Shown here: positions 2,604 through 20,925 of the stretch, one piece after another
Layout of the letters: each line of letters opens with the position of its first letter
How positions within the stretch are numbered: the first letter of the stretch is position 1
From: Luteimonas terricola
Lineage (GTDB): Bacteria > Pseudomonadota > Gammaproteobacteria > Xanthomonadales > Xanthomonadaceae
Reading direction: 5' to 3'
DNA length: 64,000 nucleotides
Assembly: GCF_004352845.1 (NCBI RefSeq)
Contig: NZ_SJRX01000003.1
Span: 124,001-188,000 of the forward strand
Notes under the pieces: model-generated
Databases searched by the model: none
Seen by the model: the letters and a program-made list of their open reading frames with translations, nothing else
What the model was told of the DNA's origin: nothing
Program-made: the position numbers and the translations under genes

Positions 2604-4994
<2,391 letters not shown>

Positions 4995-5020
4995 GGCGGG
5001 TCCGTCTGACGCAGACATGG

Positions 5021-5055
5021 AAGGCCGGGCTTCGTAGCCCGGCCTTCTTGTTTTT
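5021..5055 (+). terminator. Rho-independent terminator of ppsA
   Basis: A perfect 10-bp stem, AAGGCCGGGC/GCCCGGCCTT, with loop TTCGTA, followed by CTTGTTTTT. It starts 26 bp after the ppsA stop. The T tract runs directly into the left arm of the inverted-repeat element. Confidence 0.9.
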
Positions 5056-5225
5056 AACCACGGATGACGCGGATCAGCGCGGATTTGCGCGGATCCTTTC
5101 TTTGCAGAGGCACGGCAGCCGCGTCGCTTCGAGCGGGGCCGTGTGCGACAGCTGCCGAACAGCTTTTCAAATCTGCTTTATCCGCGAAGATCCGCTCTGA
5201 TCCGCGTAAATCCGTGGCAAAAACT
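5051..5225. repeat. Inverted-repeat element, copy 1 (phased CGCGGAT words)
   Basis: Two arms of about 45 bp are inverted copies. The left arm carries CACGGAT at 5059 and CGCGGAT at 5068, 5078 and 5088. The right arm carries ATCCGCG at 5180, ATCCGCT at 5190, ATCCGCG at 5200 and ATCCGTG at 5210. Spacing is 9-10 bp, about one helical turn. The ~80-bp centre has its own inverted repeat (CGGCAGCCGCGTCGC with GCGACAGCTGCCG). It lies between the convergent 3' ends of ppsA and orn. A related copy is at 20792-20925. No coding capacity is seen. Confidence 0.8.
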
Positions 5226-5264
5226 CCGCTCTTCCACAGCGCGCTCCTGCTTGCAAGGCTCGCG

Positions 5265-5819
5265 TCAGTCGTGCGGAGCGAAGGCACCCATGGCGTTGCG
5301 GTAGTGGCGGAGTTCGGCGATGGAGTCGTGGACGTCGCTCAGCGCGGTGTGGGCGGCCTGCTTGCGGATGCCGGCGTGGACCTGGGGCGCCCAGCGGCGG
5401 GCCAGCTCCTTGAGGGTGCTGACGTCGAGGTTGCGGTAGTGGAACCAGCGTTCGAGCGCGGGCATGCGGCGGTGCAGGAAGCGGCGGTCCTGGCAGATCG
5501 AGTTGCCGCATATGGGCGACTTGCCCGCGGGCAGCCACTGTTCCAGGAACTCCAGGGTACGCGCTTCGGCTTCGGCCATCGGCACGCCCTCTTCCAGCAC
5601 GCGACGCCACAGGCCCGAGCCGCCGTGCTGGTTGCGGTTCCATTCGTCCATCGCCTCGAGGATGGCCAGCGGCTGGGCGATGGCCAGCTCCGGTCCCTCG
5701 GCGAGCACGTTGAGGTCGGCGTCGGTGACCACGGTCGCGATCTCGAGGATGGTGTCGTGGTCAGTGTCGAGCCCGGTCATTTCAAGGTCGATCCACACCA
5801 GCCGTTCGTCGTTGCCCAC
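5265..5819 (-). CDS. orn: Oligoribonuclease (3'-5' exoribonuclease of nanoRNA)
   Basis: Degrades 2-5-nt RNAs to mononucleotides and also clears linear pGpG after c-di-GMP breakdown. DEDDh family: [10 protein letters not shown] holds the first Asp and Glu, [11 protein letters not shown] the second Asp, and [22 protein letters not shown] the last His and Asp. The GTG start at 5819 is preferred because GAGGAG lies 5 bp upstream and the protein then begins close to the family N-terminus ([15 protein letters not shown]), 184 residues. An ATG at 5837 would add six residues but has no ribosome binding site. tadA lies 42 bp upstream. Confidence 0.93.
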
Positions 5820-5861
5820 CCTCGCTCCTCGTTGCATGTCAGGCGCGCATGATACCGCGCC

Positions 5862-7309: not shown

Positions 7310-8889
<1,580 letters not shown>

Positions 8890-20791: not shown

Positions 20792-20925
20792 TTTGCCACG
20801 GATTACGCGGATCAAGAGCACATCCACGCGGATAGAGCGAAAAGCAGGTGGGCCGAAAAGGCTTTTCACCTCTGATCTTGCTGTTGCTTGATCCGCGTCA
20901 TCCGCGTAGATCCGTGGCAAAAAAA
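20792..20925. repeat. Inverted-repeat element, copy 2 (phased CGCGGAT words)
   Basis: Related to the element at 5051-5225. The left arm starts TTTGCCACGGAT and carries CGCGGAT at 20806 and 20827 (a 21-bp step, as if one unit were lost). The right arm carries ATCCGCG at 20891 and 20900 and ATCCGTG at 20910, ending GGCAAAAAAA. The centre differs from copy 1 and holds GAAAAGC/GCTTTTC and AGGTG/CACCT pairs. It fills the gap between the ndk stop and the rlmN start. The right arm's final A-tract overlaps the ndk stop region. Confidence 0.75.

Follow-up and report, generated by a model that had tools for sequence, protein, structure and literature searches.

Dispersed inverted word arrays in Luteimonas terricola and their association with genes for Cas4-like GxxExxY nucleases

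Between the genes ppsA and orn of Luteimonas terricola lies an inverted-repeat element built from short, regularly spaced words, which we analysed within a 64,000-nucleotide stretch of the genome (the window). The new data indicate that this element is probably a dispersed, non-coding inverted-repeat unit that is served in trans by a single-copy, Cas4-like nuclease of the GxxExxY family. The nuclease gene is associated with inverted arms made of such words, a pairing that is found across many phyla, with words that are particular to the nuclease lineage. The patterns further suggest that the repeats depend on the nuclease for their movement or maintenance. Such a partnership of enzyme and repeat apparently has gone unrecognised so far: a literature search that did not cover subscription papers and preprints found no link between GxxExxY genes and repeats, or between DUF559 genes and repeats, and the available portions of two further papers (PMC2996986, PMC12306157) contain nothing on such repeats.

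The element occupies positions 5050-5224 of the window, where a repeat finder reports 45-nt arms that are 76% complementary and separated by 85 nt. The left arm (5050-5094, forward strand) carries four inward-reading words within 5059-5094, namely CACGGAT at 5059 and CGCGGAT at 5068, 5078 and 5088, and the right arm (5180-5224, reverse strand) carries four ATCCGCG-type words at 5180, 5190, 5200 and 5210 (5180-5216). The words are therefore of the CRCGGAT type, on opposite strands in the two arms, with steps of 9, 10 and 10 bp on the left and of 10 bp throughout on the right, and the inverted repeat with four words per arm that an earlier reading of the sequence letters (the original prediction) had described is borne out. 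Its claim that all words face one side of the helix holds approximately; strict helical phasing is rejected, since word steps in the family are mostly shorter than the 10.5-bp turn. Likewise, the nested inverted repeat that it placed in the non-coding centre (5095-5179) survives as a modest predicted stem, the repeat finder reporting no inner pair of at least 12 nt. Structure prediction yields a strong fold: the RNA fold of 5031-5245 has a z of -5.66 and the DNA fold of 5050-5226 a z of -8.70 on the forward and -7.58 on the reverse strand, each beating 200 of 200 dinucleotide shuffles. The arms are distinguished by word matches with zero or one mismatch; a loose two-word scan of the whole window that allowed three mismatches gave 32 matches against 32.0 in shuffles, that is, no excess.

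The element is one of many in its genome (G000; 3.04 Mb, 20 contigs). A DNA search of this genome returned 165 matches at E up to 10, and a three-word pattern found 60 matches, against none for the reversed control pattern. The word arrays group into 41 clusters, which comprise 110 arms and count in the nuclease element described below as well as both elements of the window. All forward arms lie to the left of all reverse arms in 39 of these clusters, giving an inward-reading layout, and the other two are one-sided; simple pairs account for twenty clusters and nested double pairs for nine. Word steps are 10 bp in 158 cases, 9 in 66 and 11 in one. Open reading frames (ORFs) of at least 150 aa span 8 of the 41 clusters as against 1,483 of 2,050 random windows from the same stretches, and 12 of 39 inner arm pairs are identical where 2.0 would be expected. 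These copies show that the element is not a purely local structure and, as had been suggested, is more than a simple terminator. The proposal of a mobile repeat akin to miniature inverted-repeat transposable elements (MITEs) or repetitive extragenic palindromic (REP) sequences fared unevenly: the element is indeed dispersed and MITE/REP-like, while membership of the REP/RAYT group is not supported, there being no Y1 transposase match in the genome. Taken as a whole, the original prediction is partly supported. One cluster (L181; G000:C10, ~647739-648103) has an unusually long centre of ~320 bp, in which a further long GC-rich inverted repeat is visible by eye.

The sole PF13366 match of the genome is a gene at C10:587988-588323, which encodes a 127-aa GxxExxY protein (GxxExxY / PDDEXK_3) scoring 129.8 bits with TIGR04256 (cut-off 35) and 133.2 with PF13366 (cut-off 22). 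This gene is bracketed by 45-bp arms that are 98% complementary and carry the same words as the window element, and its ORF stands alone between them. The arms and their inner extension recur in several non-coding copies. Of 369 genomes sampled within a single class, 66 have GxxExxY genes, which also occur in records that by title belong to about fifteen phylum-level groups, including one archaeal assembly. A single query at E 1e-5 gave no match in 50,697 phage records and matched 8 of 72,556 plasmid records, all of them predicted to be non-mobilizable. At one locus (L380, G114:C111), three GxxExxY genes stand in tandem at 8548, 8974 and 9400, with a spacing of 426 bp, and two of them contain an internal stop codon.

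To quantify the arms, the best inverted repeat between the 250-bp flanks on either side of a gene was scored, with a threshold of at least 14. Inverted arms at this threshold flank the gene in 27 of 30 loci of relatives, in 28 of 30 loci of the class, and in 54 of the 73 usable loci among 80 from named records, which by title cover Bacteroidota, Acidobacteria, Chloroflexi, Planctomycetes, Nitrospirae, Ignavibacteriae, Patescibacteria and one archaeal assembly. The loci from multi-copy genomes have them without exception (27/27, of which 25 are new, since L380 and L381 duplicate L090 and L285; L357 was dropped at a contig edge). Neighbouring ORFs on the same contigs reach the threshold in 2 of 245 cases and shuffles in 1 of 365. 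Scoring of the relatives and the class trims arms that overlap the coding end, which brings L068 and L080 below the threshold. With fixed flanks, the GxxExxY sets score 28/29 and 23/25 as compared to 0/22 for UPF0102 (PF02021), a small, conserved, nuclease-like family that served as control; the four sets of this comparison lost 1, 5, 8 and 2 loci to short flanks.

The words themselves follow the nuclease. Specifically, the arms of 109 loci contain 492 inward-reading as against 39 outward-reading words of the form C-[AGT]-C-N-R-A-[TGA], with variants that include CGCGGAT, CGCAGAT, CACAGAG, CACGAAG, CGCAAAG and CGCGAAT, among others, and with steps over these loci of other nucleases of 8 (45), 9 (121), 10 (84) and 11 bp (4), plus longer gaps. 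A word class could be assigned to 83 of the 109 armed loci, and to 48 in the one-class tree, the rest having too few or mixed words. On a quick nuclease tree of the 83 rows, the word class changes 12 times versus 35.7 when shuffled, and on a careful tree of the 48 one-class rows 13 times versus 25.8. Of 21 same-genome nuclease pairs below 50% identity, 18 have different word classes and 3 share one, whereas pairs at or above 50% share the class in three cases and differ in two; the 91% identical pair of G424 uses the same word (the count omits L354, which has no words, and the duplicate L380). Because diverged nucleases of one genome usually differ in word, host ancestry alone cannot explain the word clustering. 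The suggestion that the words form an array for a protein fits this co-variation of word and nuclease.

Gene and arrays are also linked at the level of whole genomes. Among 150 relatives, at least ten GGAT-type matches occur in 12 of 27 genomes with the gene and in 6 of 123 without it (p 1e-6). With a general word pattern, four or more arrays are present in 19 of 30 class genomes with the gene versus 2 of 30 without, a threshold picked after the counts were known; at one or more arrays, the figures are 25/30 and 9/30. Those with the gene were the best-scoring locus-yielding genomes of the 66, and those without it were low-numbered ones, the 0.4-Mb G166 being omitted. The reversed control of the general pattern gave 20 matches in G454 and 9 in G152; those in G454 perhaps represent another repeat family.

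Comparison of flanks in relatives, which the original prediction had called for, reveals turnover at the ppsA-orn site. Both flanks were found in 23 of 30 loci (own included), with full arrays in 3, none in 17, and a single word pair, interval >1 kb, in the remaining 3. Different versions of the element occupy the site in three species (G000, G003 and G018), and in a fourth, G015, it is empty, its flanks lying 66 bp apart versus 271 in G000. With 41 clusters in the genome and a site that varies among relatives, the outcome that would have refuted the original prediction, a lack of further copies together with an unchanged flank in every relative, did not occur. Eleven of the 12 loci tested, among them those of Luteimonas lumbrici and of a member of another family, have the nuclease element at one common site. 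In several genera, this site (L061 and same-site loci) lies between genes for enoyl-CoA hydratase and biotin carboxylase, presumably within a leucine-degradation operon. Among the 29 loci for which both flanks were obtained, 14 have a wordless gap of at most 100 bp at this site, one of them with an apparent decayed arm. In G015 (L237), an insert that itself contains inverted-repeat stretches has taken the place of most of the gene, and the right arm and the gene end are kept. The arms at the nuclease site vary between species, and a nuclease's own arms are the best match, or tied with those of a sister species, in 7 of 11 loci. Additionally, G424 carries the whole 464-bp nuclease element twice, 90.5% identical and with unrelated flanks.

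Several other explanations can be weighed against these data. It is unlikely that the arrays serve the host as regulatory or nucleoid sites, bound by IHF/HU-like proteins or by a dedicated global regulator, with the nuclease gene as one neighbour among many. Phased words paired on opposite strands would suit such sites, and similar arrays in Geobacter metallireducens were so read in the available part of PMC2700814, which lists 'class 1-3 predicted global regulator binding sites' and assigns them to IHF/HU or a regulator. The Geobacter sites are alike in their arrays of short tandem words and in their opposite-strand pairs at variable distance, and the reverse complement of the class 2 consensus TCTCCGTS[Y], compared by consensus only, resembles the CACGGAGA words, which suggests that similar repeats were probably seen earlier as these 'class 2' sites; they are unlike in that this part of the paper gives no nuclease link. 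Regulatory sites do not predict that the nuclease gene should have arms on both sides in most loci across many phyla, that diverged nucleases of the same genome have different words, or that sites are found empty and replaced.

In the GxxExxY proteins, D73, E83 and K85 are invariant in an alignment of 22 sequences; in one of 42, D73 and E83 are invariant and K85 is kept in at least 90%. A Q-x3-Y motif is conserved alongside D and E-x-K, and no cysteine is found among the invariant or nearly invariant columns of either alignment. The confident AlphaFold model of the Luteimonas lumbrici protein (predicted local distance difference test, pLDDT, 94.3) has LHK-Exo, Cas4 SSO0001 and lambda exonuclease as its nearest solved folds, with Hjc resolvases weaker. 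Foldseek places Cas4 4ic1 at E 9.6e-4 and 3syy at E 8.5e-4, and a second structural comparison (VIA) ranks Cas4 4ic1 first with a Z of 9.7, most others lying below 8; by sequence, no relative of solved structure appears at E up to 1. The GxxExxY proteins share fold and the D, E-x-K and Q-x3-Y residues with Cas4 and the lambda/LHK exonucleases, but differ from them in their size of ~125 aa, the lack of conserved cysteines and their own flanking inverted arms. Cas4 proteins carry four conserved iron-sulfur cysteines, and by this mark the GxxExxY proteins fall outside Cas4. The profile libraries searched name no function for the GxxExxY / PF13366 family.

A nuclease of this kind could also be a selfish or defensive cutter, for which the arms would be sites of recognition, immunity or copy control and not substrates of movement. 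This is quite unlikely. The restriction-like fold matches, the conserved catalytic residues and the vertical persistence at one site are compatible with it; against it, PADLOC-DB gives weak matches to Cas4 only (best E 0.0033), and the arms accompany non-coding elements throughout the genome and change in concert.

The most likely reading of the data is a model in which the nuclease serves the repeats. It would recognise the word array of its own element and, acting in trans, those of the non-coding units, and would cut or trim the hairpin or cruciform that the arms form. Repair could then insert the unit elsewhere, replace a unit at the same site, or copy one arm onto the other, and such arm-to-arm copying would explain why both arms of an element change jointly. 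The working mode would resemble that of RAYT/REPIN pairs or TIRtrons, except that a nuclease of the Cas4/lambda-exonuclease kind would take the role of the Y1 transposase. More tentatively, as a possibility somewhat short of being probable, stand-alone Cas4/RecB-like PD-(D/E)XK nucleases of the GxxExxY type, each recognising a private 7-bp word that is arrayed along inverted arms, may spread and homogenise miniature elements through transposase-free processing of hairpins or cruciforms, with the nuclease-like DUF559 family doing likewise on palindromic repeats of its own, so that together they would form a widespread class. If this were true, mobilisation of dispersed repeats by simple nucleases would be a general source of intergenic repeats in bacteria. 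If the pairing is functional, it would provide a substrate for the GxxExxY family, an explanation for a large set of anonymous intergenic repeats, and many natural pairs of nuclease and word for the study of DNA recognition by a 125-aa nuclease. Whether a nuclease that lacks a transposase can drive a mobile repeat family is thereby a testable question.

The closest known systems are built around other enzymes. REPIN/RAYT units (REPtrons), as far as the available part of PMC3116915 describes them, likewise comprise a repeat-flanked gene and, within one genome, numerous non-coding elements made of inverted pairs, comparable to the many intergenic inverted pairs of L. terricola, and they have enzyme-specific repeat families whose pairs form hairpins. 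They differ in having a Y1 HUH transposase where a PD-(D/E)XK nuclease is found here, and one short palindrome (20-40 bp, with a GTAG or CGTC tag) where arrays of 7-bp words are found here; this tag is absent from the outer arm ends of the window element, the sole element inspected for it. TIRtrons and TIRYTs are alike in that their gene lies within long terminal inverted repeats of which dispersed families also exist, and unlike in that their enzyme is a Y1 transposase, arms of word arrays not being described in the accessible portion of that paper (PMC3733652). Bacterial MITEs resemble the window element, which is short and non-coding, ends in terminal inverted repeats and has a coding element with the same kind of ends in its own genome; in contrast to MITEs, no transposase was found (DDE transposases were not searched genome-wide) and no target duplication was seen.

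It is very unlikely that a conventional transposase (RAYT/Y1, or that of a DDE insertion sequence) moves the repeats and that the nuclease is a passenger or regulator. The architecture is that of RAYT/REPIN and TIRtrons in the available parts of PMC3116915 and PMC3733652, and arrays persist in genomes without PF13366. Y1_Tnp (PF01797), however, has no match in the L. terricola genome, by which a RAYT is rejected as the mover there; it occurs in 6 of 15 array-bearing versus 8 of 15 array-free genomes tested (DDE transposases were not part of the search), and the nuclease ORF is the sole gene between the arms.

Several observations weigh against a nuclease that serves the repeats in trans. The arm spacing of the window element is unlike that of the arms around its own genome's nuclease, and its left arm has 34 matching positions with the nuclease arms of the sister species G018 as opposed to 26 with those of its own genome. 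At the nuclease site, own arms beat all other species' arms in just 5 of 11 loci. Since the nuclease element looks stable at one site in 11 loci, self-movement must be rare, and the target duplications that the original prediction proposed to look for were not seen by eye at the empty site of G015 or at the two G424 copies, the boundaries at these sites being inexact. Of the 73 wide-sample loci, 19 have no arms that reach the threshold; flanks mismatched between loci attain it in 74 of 730 cases, because loci share words. The AAG and AAT words span more than one nuclease clade. Arrays occur without a PF13366 gene in G028 (51 matches) and G071 (61), G036 has the gene and such arms yet just 2 pattern matches, and G146 has 45 matches while its own nuclease carries CGCGAAG-type words.

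Flanking repeats are also found around another family. The DUF559 (PF04480) genes of relatives (loci L294-L323) are flanked by inverted palindromic repeats of their own in 20 of 28 usable loci, many of the CCCCTCTCCC type, which suggests that pairs of nuclease and repeat are a wider phenomenon. At L258, a DUF559 gene occupies the exact site of the sister species' GxxExxY element, and L262 is a further locus noted for a DUF559 gene with such repeats.

The window element lies between two convergent genes, which are outside it: ppsA, encoding phosphoenolpyruvate synthase, on the left (2604-4994, forward strand; NF005057 / TIGR01418) and orn, encoding oligoribonuclease, on the right (5265-5837, reverse strand; NF003765). 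An ordinary intrinsic terminator of ppsA, with a 12-nt perfect inverted pair, spans 5019-5048 on the forward strand; it is the only one that the terminator scan found around the element, and its T-tract merges into the element's left end. As a full explanation, a structured terminator or RNA element that belongs locally to ppsA/orn is scarcely credible and is rejected, for the strong fold and the position between convergent genes are outweighed by the dispersed copies, the terminator that already serves ppsA and the empty site in G015, and the A-rich rather than U-rich bases beyond the stem on both strands indicate that the element does not have the make-up of a terminator; an incidental effect on transcript ends is possible. 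A known Rfam RNA is rejected, since eight sub-threshold matches and none at the gathering score were obtained for 4900-5400. The window holds a second member of the family (L192) at 20797-20916, with left words at 20797-20812 and right words at 20891-20916.
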